This document shows, piece after piece, positions 15,282 through 32,579 of a stretch of 64,000 bases of DNA. Below the pieces are notes generated by a model. That model was given only the letters and a program-made list of their open reading frames with translations. It did not search any database and was not told where the DNA came from. The first letter of the stretch is position 1; each line of letters opens with the position of its first letter. Origin of the DNA: an uncultured Ruminococcus sp. (GTDB lineage: Bacteria > Bacillota > Clostridia > Oscillospirales > Ruminococcaceae); NCBI GenBank assembly GCA_902762785.1, contig CACWPL010000007.1:29702-93701 (forward strand), given 5' to 3'. Made by a program: the position numbers and the translations under genes.

Positions 15282-18831
<3,550 letters not shown>

Positions 18832-18927: not shown

Positions 18928-20346
18928 TCATTTGATCTTTTGGTCGAAGATGCTCTTCTGCCGCGCGCCGGAGACGTCCACGGGGTAGTCGCCGGTGAAG
19001 CATCCCTTGCAGAAGCCGTCCGTCCGCCCGATGAGCGCGCCGAGCGACTCGACGGGGAGATAGGCGAGGCTGTCCGCGCCGATGTATGCGGCGATGGCGT
19101 CGGCATCGTGGTAGCGGTCGGCGATGAGGGTCGTCTCGGAGGCGATGTCCGTGCCGAAATAGCACCCGTGCAGGAAGGGCGGCGAGGAGATGCGGACATG
19201 CACCTCGGCCGCGCCCGCGTCACGCAGGAGCCGGATGATCTTGGTGATCGTGGTGCCGCGGACGATGCTGTCGTCGATCATGACGACCCGCTTGCCCTCG
19301 ACCGTCTCCCGGATGACGTTCAGCTTGATCCTCACGGCGTTCTCGCGCATGGACTGCTCCGGCTGGATGAAGCTCCGGCCGATGTATTTATTCTTGATGA
19401 AGCCGATGCCATAGGGGATGCCGCTTTCCTGCGCGTAGCCGAGGGCGGCGTCGAGCCCGGAATCCGGGACACCGATGACCACATCGGCATCGACCGGGGC
19501 GTGCTGTGCGAGGAGATGCCCCGCGCACATCCTGGCATGATGCACCGATACGCCCCCGATCACGGAGTCCGGCCGTGCGAAGTAGATGTATTCGAAGATA
19601 CAGAAGCTCGTGGGACATTTGCCGCAGTGCGTGCGAACGGCGCGTACCCCCTCGCTGCTGACGATGACGATCTCGCCCGGGTCGATGTCCCGCACGAACG
19701 ACGCCCCGACCGCATCGAGCGCACAGCTCTCCGAGGCGATGACATGGGCGCCGTCCGCCATCTGCCCGAGGCAGAGGGGACGGAAGCCGTTCGGGTCGCG
19801 GAAGGCGATGAGCTTTTGCGCCGTCATGACGATGCACGAGAACGCCCCGCAGAGCTGCCCCATCGCCTGCTCGACGGCCGCCTCGGTCGAGCCGCAGGTG
19901 AGCCGGTGCCGGACGATCTCATAGGCGATGGCCTCCGTGTCGGACGTGCCGTGGAAGATGGCGCCGGACAGCTCGAAGCTCCGGCGCAGAGCGGCTGCGT
20001 TGGTCAGGTCCCCGTTGTGGACGAGGGCGAGATTGCCCTTGACATGGCGGATGACGAGCGGCTGGATGTTGCTGCGCTCATGGCCGCCGGTCGTGGCATA
20101 CCGCACATGCCCGACCGCCATCTGACCGCTGCCCAGCTTTTGCAGCGTCTCCTGCGTGAACACCTCGGAGACCAGTCCGTCCGCGCGGTGCTGCGTCATC
20201 ACGCCGCCGTCGCAGACCGCGATGCCGCAGCTCTCCTGCCCGCGGTGCTGGAGCGCGTAAAGTCCCAGATAGGTGCTCCCTGCCACGTTCATCGTTTGCG
20301 GTGCGAAGATGCCGAACACGCCGCACTCTTCATGAAGTCCTGCCAA
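18928..20346 (-). CDS. purF: Amidophosphoribosyltransferase
   Basis: PurF starts purine synthesis by making phosphoribosylamine from PRPP and glutamine. The 472-residue protein has a short propeptide and the nucleophile Cys at residue 8 (HEECGVFGI), the N-terminal glutaminase domain, and the PRPP-binding motif MIDDSIVRGTT. Four Cys matching the iron-sulfur ligands of the Bacillus-type enzyme are visible (CIFEYIYFARPD, HGCYFG, FCKGCFTG). It starts 41 bases after the ANTAR gene and looks like the last gene of the glt operon, which ties a glutamine-consuming purine enzyme to nitrogen control. Confidence 0.96.
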   Translation of the reverse strand: MAGLHEECGVFGIFAPQTMNVAGSTYLGLYALQHRGQESCGIAVCDGGVMTQHRADGLVSEVFTQETLQKLGSGQMAVGHVRYATTGGHERSNIQPLVIRHVKGNLALVHNGDLTNAAALRRSFELSGAIFHGTSDTEAIAYEIVRHRLTCGSTEAAVEQAMGQLCGAFSCIVMTAQKLIAFRDPNGFRPLCLGQMADGAHVIASESCALDAVGASFVRDIDPGEIVIVSSEGVRAVRTHCGKCPTSFCIFEYIYFARPDSVIGGVSVHHARMCAGHLLAQHAPVDADVVIGVPDSGLDAALGYAQESGIPYGIGFIKNKYIGRSFIQPEQSMRENAVRIKLNVIRETVEGKRVVMIDDSIVRGTTITKIIRLLRDAGAAEVHVRISSPPFLHGCYFGTDIASETTLIADRYHDADAIAAYIGADSLAYLPVESLGALIGRTDGFCKGCFTGDYPVDVSGARQKSIFDQKIK

Positions 20347-20387: not shown

Positions 20388-20969
20388 TTACAGGTAACGC
20401 TCATTGATCCGGTCGATGATGTCCATGGCGGCCAGCGGCTTGCGCTTGCGCTTGTCCATCGCGTATTTTTCCAGGTAGGCATGCGCCTGCGCCTCGGTCA
20501 TGCCCTCGTACTGCATCATGAGGAACTTGGCGCGGTCGATCGTGCGGACGTCGCGCAGCTTTTGGGAGAGGCGCTCGTTCTCCTCGACGATCGTCCGTGC
20601 GCGCTGCATGACGATGTCCACGGTCTGCACCATGCGGTACAGCGTCTGCTTGTCGAGCGGCCGCGAGAGCACGATCACCTGATGCCGCTCCGAGAGCCAT
20701 GTGAGCTGCGCCGCCTCCTCCTGTCCGAGGATCAGGATGCAGTTGCTGTTCGTGTGCTGTGTCACATAGCACGCAAGATCGGTCCCGTTCTCGTCGATCA
20801 GCGGCCCGTGGATGATGACCAGCTCGGTGTGACGGTCATTCTCGAGCGCCGACCTTGCCTGATAGGCCGAGGGCAGTGTCGTGACCTTGTACGGGAAAGA
20901 TGCCTTCAGGAATCCTTCGAGCGATGCCGCAGCGCCGTTGCTGCCTGACAGGATCATGATCTGCTCCAT
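20388..20969 (-). CDS. ANTAR-domain antiterminator with degenerate receiver domain
   Basis: A 193-residue protein. Residues 1-115 have the fold pattern of a response-regulator receiver, but the phospho-acceptor position is His54 (ELVIIHGPL, where active receivers have LLD) and the N-terminal acidic pair is replaced by Ser-Gly-Ser. A coiled-coil linker (about 118-140) leads to an ANTAR RNA-binding domain (about 136-188: RTIDRAKFLMMQYEGMTEAQA, then YLEKYAMDKRKRKPLA). ANTAR proteins bind leader RNA hairpins and prevent termination. It lies 30 bases after a degenerate glutamine synthetase gene, as nitR follows glnA in Clostridium saccharobutylicum. It is probably controlled by protein contact, not phosphorylation. 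Confidence 0.88.
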   Translation of the reverse strand: MEQIMILSGSNGAAASLEGFLKASFPYKVTTLPSAYQARSALENDRHTELVIIHGPLIDENGTDLACYVTQHTNSNCILILGQEEAAQLTWLSERHQVIVLSRPLDKQTLYRMVQTVDIVMQRARTIVEENERLSQKLRDVRTIDRAKFLMMQYEGMTEAQAHAYLEKYAMDKRKRKPLAAMDIIDRINERYL

Positions 20970-20999
20970 AGCATGCCTCCTTGCTGCGTCGGTGTTCGG

Positions 21000-22217
21000 T
21001 CATGTCGTCTCATGCTGCTCCCATGCCGTGCGGCGGCGTGCGAGGAGGCTGTCTAGGACTGCCGGCGGGACGTGCGCAGCCAGGAACGCCGACTGCGCCG
21101 CACAGTCGACAGCCTCGCCCAGGTCATGGGGGAGCGTCTCGGTGCCGGACTTCTCAGGCGGCAGCGGCAGTGCCTCCTCGATGCCCTCGAGCGCCGCCGC
21201 GATCATCAGGCCGAATACATAGTACGGGTCGCAGACACAGTCCGCCGCGCGGAGGGTGAGGCCCTCCTCGGCAGGGTCGTCGTAAAGACGGAAGAGCTGC
21301 TCCTCCTCCCGCAGTGACCATGTCACCGTGCGCGGGACGGAGAAAGCGCCGAGCCGCGCATACGAGCTGACGGCCGTGTTGGTGAACAGCGTCATCTCGC
21401 GGATGCGGCGCATGAGTCCGGCTGCGGCCTGCTGCTGGAGACGGCGGTCGATCGTCTCCTCGTCGTCACGGTAGACGGTCATGGTGATGTGCATGCCGTT
21501 CCCGAAGGTGTCCGGGAGGGGCTTGGGCCCAAAGGACGCATAGACGCCGTGGACGCTGCTGACGGAGCGGACCGCCGAGCGGAAGCTCAGGAACGCGTCC
21601 GCTGCCCGGAGCGCAGACGCAGCATCGAAGTCGATCTCATGCTGTCCCGGGGCGGCCTCATGGTGCGAGCAGACGGGATGGATCCCCATCTGCTCGAGGA
21701 CGAGGCAGACGTCTCGGCGCAGATCCTCGCCCTTATCGGCCGGTGCCGTGTCGCAGTAGCCGGCATCGTCATGCGGACGGTCGGTCGGCATCCCATTGCT
21801 GTCGAGGCGGAAGAGCATGAACTCACAGGCCGTCCCGAAGCGAAAGCGATACCCTCTGCGGACGGCGTCCTTCGTGATGCGCTTGAGGAAATAGCGGCTG
21901 TCCGCCTCGAAATGTGTCCCGTCCGCATAGCGGATGTAGCAGAACATGCGGATGACGCGCCCCTCCTGCGGGCGCCAGGGCAGGGGCGTCATGGTCTGGA
22001 TGTCCGGGAAGAGGAAGAGGTCGCGCCCCTCTGCCGCCTCCAGGCCAGCAACCTTTTTCGGCGTGATGCGCACGCCCTTGACGAAGGCATTGGCAAGTCC
22101 GGCGGCGGGGATGGAGAGATTCTTCATCTTCCCGTTGCCGTCACAGAACGTGAGCTTGACGAACTTGACATCATTGTCCTCGATGTATTGCAGGATCTCG
22201 TCTTCCGAATAGATCAT
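21000..22217 (-). CDS. Glutamine-synthetase-like protein, probably non-catalytic
   Basis: A 405-residue GS type I homologue, shorter than the usual 440-470. The fold is clear: HHEAAPGQHEIDF (184-197), FGPKPLPDTFGNGMH (to His243), DCVCDPYYVFGLMIAAALEGI. Key residues are missing. The DGSS ammonia-site loop is replaced by TPKK (52-55); the first Glu of GPEPEF is Ala130; the flap Glu position is Ser293; the Glu of the RxEFRxP motif is Thr321. Metal-site residues Glu132, Glu187, Glu194 and His243 remain. It is cotranscribed between gltD (four-base overlap) and the ANTAR gene, and true synthesis could come from glnN nearby. I infer a glutamine or nucleotide sensor for the ANTAR protein. Confidence 0.85.
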   Translation of the reverse strand: MIYSEDEILQYIEDNDVKFVKLTFCDGNGKMKNLSIPAAGLANAFVKGVRITPKKVAGLEAAEGRDLFLFPDIQTMTPLPWRPQEGRVIRMFCYIRYADGTHFEADSRYFLKRITKDAVRRGYRFRFGTACEFMLFRLDSNGMPTDRPHDDAGYCDTAPADKGEDLRRDVCLVLEQMGIHPVCSHHEAAPGQHEIDFDAASALRAADAFLSFRSAVRSVSSVHGVYASFGPKPLPDTFGNGMHITMTVYRDDEETIDRRLQQQAAAGLMRRIREMTLFTNTAVSSYARLGAFSVPRTVTWSLREEEQLFRLYDDPAEEGLTLRAADCVCDPYYVFGLMIAAALEGIEEALPLPPEKSGTETLPHDLGEAVDCAAQSAFLAAHVPPAVLDSLLARRRTAWEQHETT

Positions 22218-23698
22218 CTCGCACCTCCCGGCAGTCCGGTGTAGCCCATCAGGAAACGGTCGACCTCCGCGGCTGCGTCCCGTCCCTCGGCGATCGCACG
22301 CACCACGAGGGACTGCCCGATATGCATGTCACCGGCGGTAAAGACCTTGTCGGCGCTCGTCCTGTGGGCGTCCTGCGCTGTGCGGACGTTCCCGCGTTCG
22401 GTCAGCTCGGCACCGAACGCGGCGGCAAGTGTGCTGTCACACCCGACGAAGCCCGCCGCGATCAGGCAGAGCTCGCAGGGGAGCACCTCCTCGCTTCCCT
22501 CGACCTCGTGCGGACGGCGATCCTCATCGAAGGTAAGGCGGACGGTCTGGACGCCGGTGAGCTTGCCGTCCTCGTCCTTCAGGAATGCTTTGACGGTGGT
22601 GCAGTAGCGGCGGGGGTCCTCACCGAATACGGCGATCGCCTCCTCCTGGCCGTAGTCCGTCTTGCAGACGCGCGGATACTCCGGGAAGGGATTCGACTCC
22701 GCACGCGTGTCGGGGAGCTTGGGCATCATCTCGAGCTGCACGATGCTCGCGCATCCGTGGCGGATGCTCGTGCCGACACAGTCGTTGCCCGTATCGCCGC
22801 CGCCGATGACGACGACATGCTTGTCCTTCGCAGAGATGTGGTCATTTTGGTCGAGACCGCCGCCCAGGAGCGCCTTGGTGGTCGACGTCAGGAAGTCGAC
22901 CGCGAAATAGATGCCCTTTGCATCGCGCCCCTCAGCCTGGATGTCGCGCGGACGGGACGCACCGCACGCGAGGACGACGGCGTCAAAGTCTTCCAGGATC
23001 GTCTCGGCCGATACGTCCTGTCCGACGGCCGTCCGGAGCCGGAACGTCACGCCCTCCTGCTCCATGAGCGCCGTGCGGCGAAGGATCACGTCCTTCTCGA
23101 GCTTCATGTTCGGGATGCCGTACATCAGCAGTCCGCCCGGACGGTCGGCCTTCTCGAAGACCGTGACGTCGTGGCCGCGGTGGCAGAGCTGGTCGGCGCA
23201 GGCGAGTCCCGCAGGGCCGGAGCCGATGACGGCCACGCGCTTGCCGCTCCTGACGGCCGCGATCTGCGGCTGCATGAGGCCGTTCGCCCAGGCGTGCTCG
23301 ATCAGCTCGTATTCATTGTCACGGACGGTCACGGGATCGCCGTGGACGCCGCAGATGCAGGCCTTCTCACAGAGCGCCGGGCAGACGCGCGAGGTGAACT
23401 CCGGGAAGCTGTTCGTCAGGAGCAGACGCGCGACGGCCTGCGATTCGTAGCCGTTCCAGAGCAGGTCGTTCCACTCCGGGATCAGGTTGTGGAGCGGACA
23501 TCCGGAGATCATGCCGCAGAGCATCTGCCCGTTCTGGCAGAAGGGCACGCCGCAGTCCATGCAGCGCCCCGCCTGCTCCTGCCGCACGTCATGCGGCAGG
23601 GGCTTGTGGAACGGCTCGTAGCTTTGGATACGCTCCAGCGGCGGGACGGTCGTGTTCTCCGTGCGTGCATAGTCGAGGAAACCAGTCGCCTTTCCCAT
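22214..23698 (-). CDS. gltD: Glutamate synthase small subunit
   Basis: GltD passes electrons from NAD(P)H through FAD and iron-sulfur clusters to GltB. The 494-residue protein has N-terminal cluster cysteines (CMDCGVPFCQNG, CGMISGCPLHN, CPALCEKACICG), an FAD dinucleotide fold (AVIGSGPAGLACADQL) and an NAD(P)H fold (VVVIGGGDTGNDCVG). It starts two bases after gltB and overlaps the GS-like gene by four bases. Confidence 0.96.
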   Translation of the reverse strand: MGKATGFLDYARTENTTVPPLERIQSYEPFHKPLPHDVRQEQAGRCMDCGVPFCQNGQMLCGMISGCPLHNLIPEWNDLLWNGYESQAVARLLLTNSFPEFTSRVCPALCEKACICGVHGDPVTVRDNEYELIEHAWANGLMQPQIAAVRSGKRVAVIGSGPAGLACADQLCHRGHDVTVFEKADRPGGLLMYGIPNMKLEKDVILRRTALMEQEGVTFRLRTAVGQDVSAETILEDFDAVVLACGASRPRDIQAEGRDAKGIYFAVDFLTSTTKALLGGGLDQNDHISAKDKHVVVIGGGDTGNDCVGTSIRHGCASIVQLEMMPKLPDTRAESNPFPEYPRVCKTDYGQEEAIAVFGEDPRRYCTTVKAFLKDEDGKLTGVQTVRLTFDEDRRPHEVEGSEEVLPCELCLIAAGFVGCDSTLAAAFGAELTERGNVRTAQDAHRTSADKVFTAGDMHIGQSLVVRAIAEGRDAAAEVDRFLMGYTGLPGGAR

Positions 23699-23700
23699 CT

Positions 23701-28227
<4,527 letters not shown>

Positions 28228-28246
28228 CGTATCCAGTCCTTTCCGT

Positions 28247-28296
28247 AAAAAAAGAAAAAGCGCCCACGATCGGACACCTCGCCCGTTCGTGAACGC
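28247..28296 (-). terminator. Leader terminator (attenuator) in front of gltB
   Basis: On the minus strand GCGTTCACGA (28296-28287) pairs with TCGTGGGCGC (28269-28260), ten pairs including two G-U, followed by a U-rich run (28259-28247). An A-A mismatch and CGG/CCG close an apical loop GCGAGGTGT (28282-28274). The structure lies between promoter and start codon, so gltBD expression needs read-through. The loop is nearly identical to that of the glnN leader hairpin. Confidence 0.85.
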
Positions 28297-28312
28297 CTTT
28301 GTTCTGTATGCC

Positions 28313-28341
28313 ATTATATCACACACGCGGACACTTGTCAA
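28313..28341 (-). promoter_or_regulatory. Promoter of the gltB operon
   Basis: Minus strand TTGACA (28341-28336), 17-base spacer, TATAAT (28318-28313). Expected start near 28306. The 311-base region 28228-28538 has no gene; it holds this promoter, the gltB attenuator, the divergent glnN promoter and the glnN leader hairpin. Confidence 0.93.
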
Positions 28342-28432
28342 TCCCTGACGGACAAATTTATGCAGGTGTGATAAATTTTCACGACCTTTGTTGTGCAGGA
28401 TAGACGAGGACGCCAAAGTTTCTCCAGACCCC

Positions 28433-28461
28433 TTGACAGATCGGCCGAAATGGGGTATACT
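28433..28461 (+). promoter_or_regulatory. Promoter of glnN
   Basis: TTGACA (28433-28438), 17-base spacer, TATACT (28456-28461). Divergent from the gltB promoter about 90 bases away. Confidence 0.88.
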
Positions 28462-28477
28462 GGGAGCGTAAACAGCA

Positions 28478-28516
28478 AGGGAGCTGTGGAGCGAGATGTT
28501 CCACAGCTCCCTTTCT
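28478..28516 (+). promoter_or_regulatory. Leader hairpin of glnN
   Basis: A perfect 13-bp stem (28478-28490 with 28500-28512) closes the 9-base loop GCGAGATGT, followed by TTCT. It starts about 10 bases into the transcript. It may act as a terminator with a weak U-run or as a protein-binding hairpin. The loop differs by one base from the gltB attenuator loop while the stems differ completely. Confidence 0.82.
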
Positions 28517-28538
28517 GCATCTCAAAGGAGGTATTCAT

Positions 28539-30629
28539 ATGGAAAAGGTCACGGAAATTTTCGGCTCGATGGTGTTCGATGACAGACAGATGAAGGCGCG
28601 GCTCTCCGATAAGGTATATAAGAGCCTCAAGCGTACCATCGACAGAGGGACGAAGCTCGACGGCTCGGTCGCTGATGCGGTCGCCGCTGCGATGAAGGAT
28701 TGGGCACTGGAGAAGGGCGCCACTCATTATACCCACTGGTTCCAGCCGGAGACCGGCCTGACCGCCGAGAAGCACGACAGCTTCATCAGCCCCGCCCCGG
28801 ACGGACGCGTCATCATGGAGTTCTCCGGCAAGGAGTTGGTCAAGGGCGAGCCGGATGCCTCCTCGTTCCCGTCGGGCGGTCTGCGTGCGACGTTCGAGGC
28901 AAGAGGCTACACGGCATGGGACCCGACCTCCTATGCGTTCATCAAGGACGGCACGCTCTACATCCCGACTGCGTTCTGCTCCTATACGGGCGAGGCGCTC
29001 GACAAGAAGGTGCCGTTGCTGCGCTCGATGGAGGCCATCAACAAGCAGGCGCTGCGCATCCTGAAGCTCTTCGGCAATGACAAGGTCCGCAGCGTGCGCA
29101 CGTCGGTCGGGCCGGAGCAGGAGTATTTCCTGGTCGACCGTGAGATGTGGAAGCAGCGCAAGGATCTGGTCATGACCGGCCGCACGCTCTTCGGTGCGAT
29201 GCCGCCCAAGGGGCAGGAGATGGACGATCACTACTTCGGCTCGATCAAGCCCCGCGTGGCAGAGTACATGGCCGACCTTGACCGCGAGCTGTGGAAGCTC
29301 GGCATCTACGCGAAGACCAAGCACAATGAGGTCGCGCCTGCACAGCACGAGCTCGCGCCCATCTACGACACGACCAACATCGCCGCCGACCACAACCAGC
29401 TCACCATGGAGATCATGCAGAAGGTGGCGCAGCGTCACGGTCTGGTGTGCCTGCTGCATGAGAAGCCCTTCGCCGGTGTGAACGGCTCCGGCAAGCACAA
29501 CAACTGGTCGATCTCGACGGATCTCGGCGAGAACCTGCTCTCGCCCGGTGAGACCCCGCAGGAGAACGCGCAGTTCCTGCTGTTCCTGACGGCCGTCATC
29601 AAGGCAGTGGACGACTACCAGGATCTGCTGCGCCTGTCCGTGGCGACGGCCGGCAACGACCATCGTCTCGGCGCGAACGAGGCACCGCCCGCCGTCATCT
29701 CCATCTTCCTTGGTGACGAGCTGACCGCGATCCTCGAGGCGCTCGAGCAGGACGTCCCCTACGGCGGCACGAAGAAGGAGAAGATGCAGCTCGGTGCCGA
29801 TGTCCTGCCGAAGTTCAGCAAGGACACCACCGACCGCAACCGCACCTCGCCCTTCGCCTTCACCGGCAACAAGTTCGAGTTCCGTATGCTCGGCTCGTCG
29901 AACTCCATCTCCTGCGCGAACATCCATCTGAACGCGGCTGTCGCGGAGGTCCTGCGTCAGTTCGCGGACGAGCTCGAGGGCGCAGCGGACTTCCACAAGG
30001 CGCTGCACGACCTGATCCGCCGCACCGTCCGCGACCACAAGCGCATCATCTTCAACGGCAACGGCTACGATGACGCATGGCTCGCCGAGGCAGAGAAGCG
30101 CGGTCTGCTGAATCTCCGCACGACGGCCGACGCTATGCCGCATCTGTGCGATGAGAAGAATGTCAAGATGCTCACGGCGCACGGCATCTTCACCGAGCCG
30201 GAGCTGTATTCCCGCCGCGACATCATGCTCGAGAACTACGTCAAGACCGTCAGCATCGAGGCGAAGACGATGGTCGACATGGCCGACAAGGAGATCATCC
30301 CGGCCGTCATCGGCTTCACCGCGGATACTGCGGCGGCGGCGGCCTCGAAGCGTGCGGTCGTGCCGGATGCGGCTTGTGCCCGCGAGGCACGCGTCGTCTC
30401 CGCGCTCTCCGCGCTCACGGACGAGATGGATGCCGCGACCGCCGCGCTCTCCGCAGACATCGAGACGCTCCGCGGCATGACGGACATCCTCGCCGCATCG
30501 GCCTATGTCCGCGACACGCTGCTCCCGGCGATGGCTACCCTGCGTGCCGCCGCCGACAAGGCAGAGACGCTGACCGGCGCCGCCGCCTGGCCGTTCCCGG
30601 CCTATGACGCGCTGCTGTTCGGCGTTTGA
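28539..30629 (+). CDS. glnN: Glutamine synthetase type III
   Basis: GSIII makes glutamine from glutamate, ammonia and ATP in a large homododecamer typical of Bacteroides, cyanobacteria and Ruminococcus. The 696-residue product has the GSIII-specific N-terminal part ([30 protein letters not shown]), the catalytic segments [38 protein letters not shown] and [12 protein letters not shown]. All main acid and Arg residues appear present, in contrast to the GS-like gene at 21000. ATG at 28539 follows AAAGGAGG. It is transcribed alone. Confidence 0.97.
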
Positions 30630-30731: not shown

Positions 30732-30739
30732 ACAGCAAT

Positions 30740-30773
30740 GGCGCTGGGAGGATCGTTCTCTCGGCGCCTTTTT
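30740..30773 (+). terminator. Leader terminator (attenuator) in front of amtB
   Basis: GGCGC (30740-30744) pairs with GCGCC (30764-30768) and continues inward through U-G, G-C, G-U, G-C, A-U, G-C pairs to a 7-base loop GATCGTT (30751-30757). TTTTT follows at 30769-30773. The ribosome site GAAAGGA begins at the next base, so the amtB gene lies beyond an intrinsic terminator. Confidence 0.8.
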
Positions 30774-30788
30774 GAAAGGATGAGATCT

Positions 30789-32579
30789 ATGGATGTAACG
30801 ACACTCATGCCCCAGGTCGATGGCGAGATCTTCGGAATCTGGTACCTGATCGGCGCGGCGCTCGTATTCTTTATGCAGGCGGGCTTCGCGATGGTGGAGA
30901 CGGGCTTTACCCGTGCCAAGAACGCCGGCAACATCATCATGAAGAACCTGATGGACTTCTGCATCGGCACGGTCGTCTTCATGCTCCTCGGCTTCGGTCT
31001 GCTGCTCGGGGAGGACGCCCTCGGCGGCTTCCTGGGTCTTCCGACGCTGGGCATCTTCACGGACTACCAGAGCTTCGACTGGCCGAACTTCGTCTTCAAC
31101 ATGGTCTTCTGCGCCACGACGGCCACGATCGTCTCCGGCGCGATGGCCGAGCGCACGAAGTTCCTCTCGTACTGCGTCTACTCCGGCGTCATCTCCGCCG
31201 TCATCTACCCGATCGAGGCACACTGGATCTGGGGCGGCGGCTGGCTCGCACAGCTCGGCTTCCACGACTTCGCAGGCTCCTGCGCGATCCACATGGTCGG
31301 CGGCATCGCAGCACTGATCGGCGCGGCCATGGAGGGCGCGCGTATCGGCAAGTTCAAGCGTGATAAGGACGGCAAGGTCATCAAGGTCCGCGCGATCCAG
31401 GGCCATAACCTGACGATCGGCGCGCTCGGCTGCTTCATCCTCTGGTTCGGCTGGTATGGCTTCAACGGTGCTGCCGCGACCTCCGGCGGACAGCTCGCCT
31501 CCATCTTCGTCGCCACCACCATCGCCCCCGCGATCGCGACCTTCGTCTGCATGATCTTCACCTGGGTCAAGTACGGCAAGCCCGATGTCTCCATGTGTCT
31601 GAACGCCTCCCTCGCCGGTCTGGTCGGCGTGACGGCGGGATGTGACGTGGTCGACGCCATCGGCGCGACGCTCATCGGTGTGGTCTCCGGCCTGCTCGTG
31701 CCGTTCGGCATCTGGCTCCTCGACCACAAGCTCCATGTCGACGACCCGGTCGGTGCCGTCGCAGTCCACATGTGCAACGGCATCTGGGGCACGTTCGCGG
31801 TCGGCCTCTTCGCCACGACGTCCGTCCCTGGCAATGACACGCTCTCCGGCCTCTTCTACGGCGGCGGCCTGCATCTGCTCGGCCTCCAGTGCCTTGCCAT
31901 CCTGACGGTCGGCACGTGGACGGCCGTGACCATCTCGGCGACGTTCTTTGTCATCAAGAAGACCATCGGTCTGCGTGCGTCTGCTGAGGAGGAGATCGTC
32001 GGTCTCGACCTCACGGAGCATGCCCTCGCAAGTGCCTACGGCGACTTCGCTCCGGCGGCCGACACCGTCCTCCAGCAGAAGCGTCAGGCGATCCGCCACA
32101 GCGTGGACAGCAGCGAGCTCAAGGACGTGTACGGCACCGACGCCGAGCGTATCACCGCGCCGACGCCCGCAGCCGTAAAGCCCGCCCCGGCGATGCAGAC
32201 CGCGGCGCCCGGCGCGAAGTACACCAAGCTCTCCATCGTCTGCAAGCAGGGCAAGCTCGAGGAGCTCCAGGCCGGTCTTGCGGCCGTGGGCATCGACGGC
32301 ATCACGGTGACACAGGTACTCGGCTACGGCACGCAGCTCGGCCACACGACCTATTACCGCGGCGTCAAGCAGGAGATGCCTTCGCTGCACCCGAAGGTCA
32401 AGGTCGAGGCCGTCGTGACGAAGGTCCCGGTCGAGACGGCGCTCGAGGCGGCGCGGAAAGCGCTGTATACCGGCAATATCGGCGACGGCAAGATCTTCAT
32501 CTACGATGTCGAGGACGTCGTCAAGGTCCGTACCGGCGAGCGCGGCTACGATGCGCTCCAGGACTCCCCGGCGCCGTAA
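30789..32579 (+). CDS. amtB: Ammonium transporter fused to a PII signal domain (AmtB-GlnB)
   Basis: A 596-residue fusion. Residues about 10-410 form the ammonium channel with eleven helices; the paired pore His lie in GSCAIHMVGG and AVHMCNGIWG. A linker leads to a PII/GlnK domain (about 478-596) with the ATP/2-oxoglutarate-binding pattern KLSIVCKQGKLEEL, a T-loop (GYGTQLGHTTYYRG), and KVKVEAVV and GDGKIFIYDVEDVVKVRTGE. The usual uridylylation Tyr of the T-loop (RGAEY) is replaced by Gln (RGVKQ), so control would be by ligand binding alone. Start at 30789 chosen for GAAAGGA eight bases upstream; the longer frame begins inside the attenuator. Confidence 0.94.
   Translation: MDVTTLMPQVDGEIFGIWYLIGAALVFFMQAGFAMVETGFTRAKNAGNIIMKNLMDFCIGTVVFMLLGFGLLLGEDALGGFLGLPTLGIFTDYQSFDWPNFVFNMVFCATTATIVSGAMAERTKFLSYCVYSGVISAVIYPIEAHWIWGGGWLAQLGFHDFAGSCAIHMVGGIAALIGAAMEGARIGKFKRDKDGKVIKVRAIQGHNLTIGALGCFILWFGWYGFNGAAATSGGQLASIFVATTIAPAIATFVCMIFTWVKYGKPDVSMCLNASLAGLVGVTAGCDVVDAIGATLIGVVSGLLVPFGIWLLDHKLHVDDPVGAVAVHMCNGIWGTFAVGLFATTSVPGNDTLSGLFYGGGLHLLGLQCLAILTVGTWTAVTISATFFVIKKTIGLRASAEEEIVGLDLTEHALASAYGDFAPAADTVLQQKRQAIRHSVDSSELKDVYGTDAERITAPTPAAVKPAPAMQTAAPGAKYTKLSIVCKQGKLEELQAGLAAVGIDGITVTQVLGYGTQLGHTTYYRGVKQEMPSLHPKVKVEAVVTKVPVETALEAARKALYTGNIGDGKIFIYDVEDVVKVRTGERGYDALQDSPAP

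Follow-up and report, generated by a model that had tools for sequence, protein, structure and literature searches.

The model we propose concerns two adjacent genes in a 64,000-nucleotide stretch of DNA of an uncultured Ruminococcus sp. (contig CACWPL010000007.1; the whole stretch is called the window below), which encode a protein resembling glutamine synthetase (GS) and, directly behind it, an ANTAR protein. Their products would constitute a 2-oxoglutarate-gated antitermination switch, the GS-like protein being the ligand sensor and the ANTAR protein the antiterminator, and as an explanation of the whole we give this somewhat better than even chances. It combines features that are read in the sequence: the loss of catalytic residues from the GS-like protein, a pseudo-receiver in the ANTAR protein, the pairing of their genes, a leader architecture with covariation, and the retention of a 2-oxoglutarate pocket. 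We infer from them a physical complex of the two proteins, 2-oxoglutarate as its ligand, the state of the sensor that binds the ANTAR protein and the sign of the response, as follows. When nitrogen is plentiful and 2-oxoglutarate is low, the GS-like protein would hold the ANTAR protein, and transcription of gltBD-GS-ANTAR, glnN, amt-PII and pyrG would end in their leaders. Nitrogen shortage raises 2-oxoglutarate, its metabolic signal, whose presence at the subunit joints would change the shape of the GS-like oligomer and free (or present) the ANTAR protein. The freed ANTAR protein would bind each leader at its single hexaloop, close to the 5' end, as the RNA leaves the polymerase, and the pinned hexaloop would block the overlapping terminator and permit the synthesis of GS, glutamate synthase (GOGAT), Amt and the users of amide nitrogen. 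The proposed sign of the response fits, since the GS/GOGAT genes of Clostridium saccharobutylicum are reportedly induced by NitR, an ANTAR protein, when nitrogen is limiting (PMC6316151).

The GS-like protein has the GS beta-grasp and catalytic domain fold across its whole length and is of type I (GSI); its three best sequence matches in the PDB are all the GS of Methanosarcina mazei. Five of its 12 core catalytic residues are changed, namely the Asp of DGSS (Asp50), the metal ligands E132 and E333, the flap Glu E304, whose position is occupied by a Ser, and the catalytic R316. The NCBIfam model TIGR00653 gives it 224.8 bits, under the cut-off of 429.15, and the model of gamma-glutamylputrescine synthetase 154.7 bits (cut-off 650). 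The preliminary description of this locus, made from the sequence alone, had called the protein a non-catalytic GS that lacks the DGSS loop, two metal-binding Glu and the flap Glu, which agrees with our alignment, and the loss of the catalytic Arg comes in addition. The protein is most likely a catalytically degraded GSI, the production of glutamine being left to the type III enzyme (GSIII). As a further catalytic loss, N240 in the Asn loop was considered and dropped, free-standing GSIs showing N, A, P, S or C there.

In the genome to which the window belongs, a Gln-synt_C domain occurs at four places, of which two are GSIII and two GSI-like, and each of its two ANTAR genes directly follows a GSI-like gene; no catalytically intact GSI was found in the assembly (completeness rating 92%). 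The second pair, on contig C5 (L007:6767-8656), has different losses (E132K, E189K, H245T and E304G), and no hexaloop element is seen in its own leader. In a genome of the same genus (G028, locus L076), a C5-type pair is followed by amt, with a hexaloop element in between. Among the 119 genomes of a family survey, ANTAR domains occur in 85, GSI-like proteins (counted at an E-value of 1e-10) in 75 and GSIII in 109. Eighty-one family proteins were read, 74 diverged GSI-like proteins and seven free-standing GSI or GS, one gene (G001) being left out. An ANTAR gene lies downstream on the same strand for all 74 diverged proteins, within 107 nucleotides (nt) in 73 cases and at 704 nt in L013; none was found near the seven free-standing ones within their fetched stretches. 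In a family tree built by a quick method, from which four distant free-standing rows were excluded, the 74 form one group (support 100, stem of 1.0 changes per column); within it, six rows including the window protein form a group with support 96, and eight rows including the C5 copy one with support 99.

The pairing extends to named genomes. In the best 80 of at least 580 confirmed matches, which were those kept from the scan, an ANTAR frame stands behind the GS gene on the same strand in 80 of 80, within 84 nt in 79 and with overlapping open frames in L146; among the named matches listed are Clostridium sp. DSM 8431, Marasmitruncus massiliensis, Defluviitalea phaphyphila, Treponema, Sphaerochaeta and an Erysipelotrichales bacterium. 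We regard the gene pairing as well supported. The preliminary description had likened the two proteins to AmiC-AmiR, and they may work in that way, given this adjacency in the family and in the named loci and the ANTAR-type hairpins that stand ahead of the nitrogen-assimilation operons. Pairs were also read in Treponema, Spirochaetaceae, Spirochaetales and Sphaerochaeta records (L102, L108, L109, L113, L114, L123), some of them near purF-like frames; a transfer of the GS-ANTAR unit between phyla is suggested.

As to the ligand, the GS of M. mazei is reported to be assembled and activated by 2-oxoglutarate via F24, R26, R87, R172, R173 and S189 (PMC11957540), and the glutamine lock of the Bacillus subtilis GS to consist of E304 with R62 (PMC9249791, PMC10799026). 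At the six pocket positions the window protein has F, K, R, R, R and S, five of them identical to M. mazei and the change R26K being conservative, and its C5 paralogue has all six; the B. subtilis GS is without this pocket (Y24, T87 and an E at position 40). Over the 74 rows of the family, the residue of M. mazei stands in 429 of the 444 pocket cells; the six are complete in 62 rows, and in 69 when R26K is counted as a match. In the 14 most degraded rows, which are two tree groups chosen after the residue table had been seen, the mean pocket retention is 0.90, a value reached by 28 of 20,000 residue-matched random sixes; in the same rows E304 is kept in 7%, E132 in 21% and R26 in 57%. The lock is found in a different condition: R62 is an R in two of the 74 family members and an A in the window protein, and E304 is an E in 38 of the 74, when R62 is kept in 20 of 20 free-standing GSIs at class level. 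Of 40 hand-picked GS rows at class level, 35 have the complete pocket, namely 33 of the 38 rows counted as ANTAR-linked (L215 among them, its gap being about 0.9 kb) and both unlinked ones. Since the pocket is retained while the residues of the glutamine lock are gone, the comparison points to 2-oxoglutarate as the ligand of the window protein; glutamine, the first choice of the preliminary description, is disfavoured, and 2-oxoglutarate, which had been listed there as an alternative, comes forward.

The ANTAR protein matches PF03861 with 50.7 bits (cut-off 27.3). Its structure model (mean pLDDT, the predicted local distance difference test score, 96.8) comprises a receiver fold, a 49-residue helix (residues 107-155, coiled coil) and a three-helix ANTAR end, the long helix being followed by helices 159-173 and 177-192. 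AmiR is the second-best solved-structure match of its profile, and the list of structure neighbours (VIA) of the model is filled by receiver domains and is uninformative on the ANTAR half. In the profile alignment, His54 is aligned with the acceptor Asp of Rv1626 and EutV, and the acidic pair of beta-1 is replaced by S8-G9, so that the earlier reading of the protein as non-phosphorylatable is upheld. Across the family ANTARs, position 54 is N in 64, H in three, D in one (of the 74 with a letter there) and another residue in six, one fragment having no letter. Because this position is so rarely Asp, phosphorylation is unlikely to control the ANTAR protein in the window lineage. At class level, Asp54 is found in 7 of 37 ANTARs adjoining a GS and in 7 of 20 without a GS neighbour, four of the latter set (L187, L190, L195, L203) having the full acidic pair. 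Two of these, L187 and L190, have a classical receiver (DDE, Asp54, KP) and two ANTAR domain matches per frame. In G028, a 98-residue ANTAR frame without receiver (L088:6388-6681), with no GS match in its stretch, is perhaps a decayed copy of a window-type pair.

The target of the switch would be a module shared by the glnN leaders of relatives, where, right after the -10 box, a short stem carries a hexaloop with A1 and G4 and overlaps a terminator whose 5' arm begins inside the hexaloop. A strict scan for this hexaloop-terminator arrangement gives three matches in the window (gltB, amt and pyrG) versus none in each of 10 shuffles, and 102 in 82 fetched loci (L007-L088, 1.14 Mb) versus one in a single shuffle; the matches of window and loci together make the set of 105 elements used below. 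The glnN leader of the window has the same hairpin and was passed over by the strict scan because of its weak T tail, but is found by covariance models. One of these, R2, built from 46 sequences with those of the window excluded, finds all four window leaders with E-values of 1.7e-7 to 1.7e-5, as well as a reverse-strand shadow of the glnN palindrome (E-value 0.0017). Of 148 distinct elements selected by promoter, loop sequence AANGRY and T-run, with no demand for pairing, 114 form the complete four-pair stem and the other 34 fail to, whereas re-dealing the 3' tetramers 500 times gives on average 31.8 fully paired elements and never more than 49; 15 different stems are represented, for example CAGC/GCTG, GAAC/GTTC, GGAC/GTCC and TAGC/GCTA. 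A looser pattern for the motif gave shifted registers and was replaced by AANGRY. In alignment A2 (50 rows chosen by us, at least 46 of them from the scan that requires pairing), the covariation of both mutually exclusive structures is unreached by any of 500 shuffles, and slid versions score far lower.

A promoter of the sigma-70 type is predicted for 89 of the 105 elements, versus 28 with shuffled upstream sequences, and in the elements with a promoter the hairpin starts at a median of 10 nt past the -10 box; in the window the distance is 8 nt for pyrG and similar for gltB and glnN (table), and in the amt leader the best-scoring -10 box is merely 1 nt from the hairpin. Because the hairpin begins so close to the -10 box, there would be no room for an upstream P1 hexaloop, and by these predicted promoters the leaders seem to have one hexaloop each. 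RNA control by a promoter-hairpin-terminator unit with covariation is well supported as far as sequence comparison reaches, and its binding by the ANTAR protein is predicted. Rfam has no match within the window at gathering scores, and on 28180-28560, at E-values up to 1, all matches are far under the gathering scores of their families. The hexaloop-terminator module occurs twice in succession, with a terminator to each copy, ahead of glnN in L061:1551-1671 (-) and ahead of gdh in L065:7633-7756 (+).

The elements mark what reads as a regulon of ammonia and amide-nitrogen use. The first suitable frame behind the 105 elements is glnN in 28 cases, a class-II glutamine amidotransferase in 23, the GS of the pair in nine, pyrG in nine (window included), asnA, an N-acetyl sugar amidotransferase and amt in five each, gdh and gltB in four each (the L050 gltB element lies inside the gene and is chance-like) and purA in two. 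One element each precedes asnB, carA, purC, glmS (L071), an amidase and LL-diaminopimelate aminotransferase; four are followed by unnamed frames and one lies at the end of a contig. Except for glnN, amt, gltB and GS, these names rest on one tested member per group, two for gdh; in the class-II amidotransferase group PF00310 is over its cut-off in the one tested, and the assignment as GOGAT subunit comes from the neighbouring gltB. Neighbours of the GS-like gene are over-represented among these targets because the loci were fetched for holding such genes. In the rest of the window genome, searched with models R1 and R2, the leader of pyrC (dihydroorotase; contig C9, L177) is convincing, with an E-value of 0.006 for R2. 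This element (L177:1501-1549) lies about 50 nt from an upstream -10-like box, which leaves room for a second hairpin. Weaker matches in L173, L174, L175 and L176 were rejected, parts of the motif being absent on reading. The promoter-plus-loop pattern occurs genome-wide at seven places, three of them in the window, versus two in a reversed control, and the full stem was seen in none of the four places outside the window. The list may be incomplete, because R2 genome-wide (150 of 1216 candidates scored) passed over pyrG, which it finds in the window search.

The pairing appears to be older than the loss of catalysis. A canonical intact GSI (DGSS, H195 and all 12 core residues) is directly followed by an ANTAR gene in 16 of the 40 class rows, and among the 74 family members all 12 core residues are kept in 32, one is lost in 20 and two to seven in 22. 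On a FastTree tree of 138 rows, from which the active-site and pocket columns had been removed, the minimum numbers of changes are 10 for E132, 12 for E304, 8 for R316 and 5 for E333, counts that are rough because many forks of the tree are weak. Since fully intact GSI genes also adjoin ANTAR genes, we read the sequences as a pairing that preceded the loss and a catalysis that eroded later and repeatedly, in a graded decay of which the window protein is among the most advanced cases. The idea that the same residues would be lost wherever the ANTAR gene is adjacent does not hold for these relatives, and intact homologues beside ANTAR genes, which the preliminary description had named as a ground for giving up its reading, do occur in the family; the window protein itself is not among them. 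In L234 (genome G160, where no GSIII match is present), three successive genes encode an intact GSI, a diverged GS and an ANTAR protein, an arrangement that is likely a duplication stage. Core residues are lost in 8 of 32 class rows with GSIII versus none of eight without; a confinement of the losses to GSIII-bearing genomes was set aside as not significant (about 0.14 by hand calculation). The fuller proposal, that a pseudo-GS became a dedicated 2-oxoglutarate receptor gating a phosphorylation-independent ANTAR protein on a single 5' hexaloop, for an amide-nitrogen regulon wide in Clostridia, and evolved stepwise from an active GS-ANTAR pair after GSIII took over catalysis, we hold at slightly less than even.

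Several observations weigh against the proposed switch. The 14 degraded rows were picked with the residue table in view, and R26 is replaced by K not only in the window protein but throughout its six-row group. The full pocket is not exclusive to ANTAR partners, being found without an ANTAR gene in 5 of 20 free-standing class GSIs and in one of the seven family ones, and a phylogeny-aware sign test of ANTAR linkage against R87, with too few pairs, gave a median p of 0.25. On the RNA side, one of five measures for the short stem, the pairs changed on both sides, is not above shuffles (219 of 500), and EutV is reported to require two hexaloops, P1 and P2, for antitermination (PMC8934654). Moreover, the amino-acid site of the window protein (E134, E189, H245, R298, R335) is largely kept, which makes the binding of glutamine or glutamate possible. 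The switch could then be the same with glutamine (or glutamate) as ligand in the old substrate site, the glutamine-bound GS-like protein holding the ANTAR protein after the model of the feedback-inhibited Bacillus GS that holds TnrA or activates GlnR. A glutamine-bound GS is established as a regulator for GlnR (PMC9249791), and all 12 positions of the active site are kept in 32 of the 74 relatives; the lock residues counted above, both replaced in the window protein, speak against this version, as does the C5 paralogue, which is without E189 and H245 as well. We consider glutamine an unlikely ligand, yet one to be taken seriously.

Slightly more doubtful still is a scheme in which the ANTAR protein regulates the leaders constitutively or via a partner such as PII and the GS-like protein, rather than being the sensor, is a relic or has a structural part. 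It would account for the non-Asp acceptor site in 13 of the 20 fetched ANTARs without a GS neighbour, and a PII domain is indeed fused to Amt in the window; against it, the pairing persists in the loci examined, from Clostridia and from some records of Spirochaetes and Erysipelotrichales, and a relic would not be expected to keep its frame open over so large a divergence with one pocket selectively maintained. That the GS-like protein still catalyses a reaction, though a different one, for instance as another gamma-glutamyl ligase, the ANTAR gene being merely co-transcribed, seems improbable: the superfamily includes other ligases, of which the gamma-glutamylputrescine synthetase model gave the sub-threshold score above, and 32 of 74 relatives look intact at the catalytic positions, but E132, E333, R316 and the flap Glu are gone from the window protein, the ATP-dependent ligases of this fold are expected to need their metals, and the losses recur, with at least 10 changes for E132 and at least 12 for E304 on the weakly resolved FastTree tree. 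An ordinary glnA-nitR pair with an active GS, as in C. saccharobutylicum, is the least probable reading and a very improbable one; the induction of GS/GOGAT genes by NitR described there (PMC6316151) and the frequency of intact GSI-ANTAR pairs in the class speak for it, and the five lost core residues and the two GSIII of the genome against it.

The proposed 2-oxoglutarate-gated switch has relatives among known systems. In AmiC-AmiR of Pseudomonas (1qo0), a ligand-binding partner acts with an ANTAR protein and no phosphorylation is involved; AmiC and NasS have binding-protein folds, and GlnA of C. saccharobutylicum is a functional GS. A ligand-binding partner and an ANTAR protein working without phosphorylation are likewise reported for NasS-NasT (PMC3795266). 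The window-type pairs share with these two systems the conserved adjacency of sensor and ANTAR genes and differ in their partner, a former enzyme of GS fold. NitR resembles our case as an ANTAR protein tied to GS/GOGAT genes (PMC6316151), whereas in the window the GS-like protein has lost catalytic residues, GSIII is present and candidate target hairpins are identified. In Bacillus and relatives, the GS that acts on GlnR and TnrA is active, senses glutamine via E304-R62 and addresses DNA-binding proteins; the window protein is without both residues and its partner is a predicted RNA binder. The 2-oxoglutarate-activated GS of M. mazei and Methanothermococcus shares F24, R87, R172, R173 and S189 with it, with R26K, but these are active, allosterically regulated enzymes, and in the window the pocket survives without the active site. 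With EutV of Enterococcus the leaders share a hexaloop hairpin with A1 and G4 that excludes the terminator (PMC3369931, PMC8934654); they seem to have a single hexaloop close to the 5' end where EutV uses two, and the window receiver is predicted to be non-phosphorylatable.

Sensor-ANTAR pairs, NitR beside GS/GOGAT genes and GS as a regulator are already known separately. In the open-licence literature on GS-ANTAR sensors, NitR, pseudo-GS, single-hairpin ANTAR systems and 2-oxoglutarate with ANTAR, no description of the present system was recognised by title and start of abstract, and in this scope a pseudo-GS with a preserved 2-oxoglutarate pocket that would act on single-hexaloop leaders appears to be new. 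To our knowledge, nitrogen sensing in Clostridia of this kind is poorly worked out, and the window brings together candidates for sensor, transducer and target RNA in one 17-kb stretch, with clear predictions. It also belongs to a series in which the passage from an active enzyme to what looks like a pseudoenzyme sensor can be followed, and in which many apparently independent catalytic losses have left one pocket, and the pocket argument makes the question of the ligand directly testable. Finally, the leaders supply many natural candidates for single-hexaloop ANTAR control, a case that needs further work according to the paper on the EutV-RNA structure (PMC8934654).

The features of the locus are collected in the table. 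The gene order is gltB-gltD-GS-ANTAR-purF, and the GS-ANTAR pair most likely belongs to the GOGAT operon, because the gltD and GS-like genes overlap by 4 bases and the ANTAR gene starts 30 bases downstream of the GS-like gene.

Table. Genes and predicted control elements around the GS-ANTAR pair (window positions)
Feature	Coordinates	Strand	Remarks
GS-like gene, 405 aa	21000..22217	-	degraded type I glutamine synthetase (most likely) with conserved 2-oxoglutarate pocket
ANTAR antiterminator, 193 aa	20388..20969	-	pseudo-receiver: His54, beta-1 acidic pair replaced
gltB, glutamate synthase large subunit	23701..28227	-	first gene of the operon holding the GS-ANTAR pair; start codon at the 28227 end is our own reading of the sequence
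gltD, glutamate synthase small subunit	22214..23698	-	4-base overlap with the start of the GS-like gene
purF, amidophosphoribosyltransferase	18928..20346	-	glutamine user; 41 bases after the ANTAR gene, same strand
glnN, type III glutamine synthetase	28539..30629	+	
amt-PII, ammonium transporter-PII domain fusion	30780..32579	+	start 30780 or 30789 by reading; listed open reading frame from 30738
pyrG, glutamine-hydrolysing CTP synthase	16041..17672	+	predicted regulon member
gltB leader element	28250..28305	-	hairpin GAAC[AAAGGC]GTTC overlapping terminator
gltB promoter, TTGACA-17-TATAAT	28341-28313	-	hairpin begins 8 nt past the -10 box
glnN leader element	28472..28519	+	CAGC[AAGGGA]GCTG from 28473, overlapping a long hairpin with weak T tail
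glnN promoter	28433-28461	+	hairpin begins 11 nt past the -10 box
amt leader element	30732..30777	+	CAGC[AATGGC]GCTG overlapping terminator GGCGC..GCGCC TTTTT
pyrG leader element	15913..15973	+	GAAC[AAAGAC]GTTC overlapping terminator

In the amt gene of the window (listed frame 30738-32579), the PII signalling domain is fused at the C-terminus of the transporter, and the gene itself stands behind a hexaloop leader.

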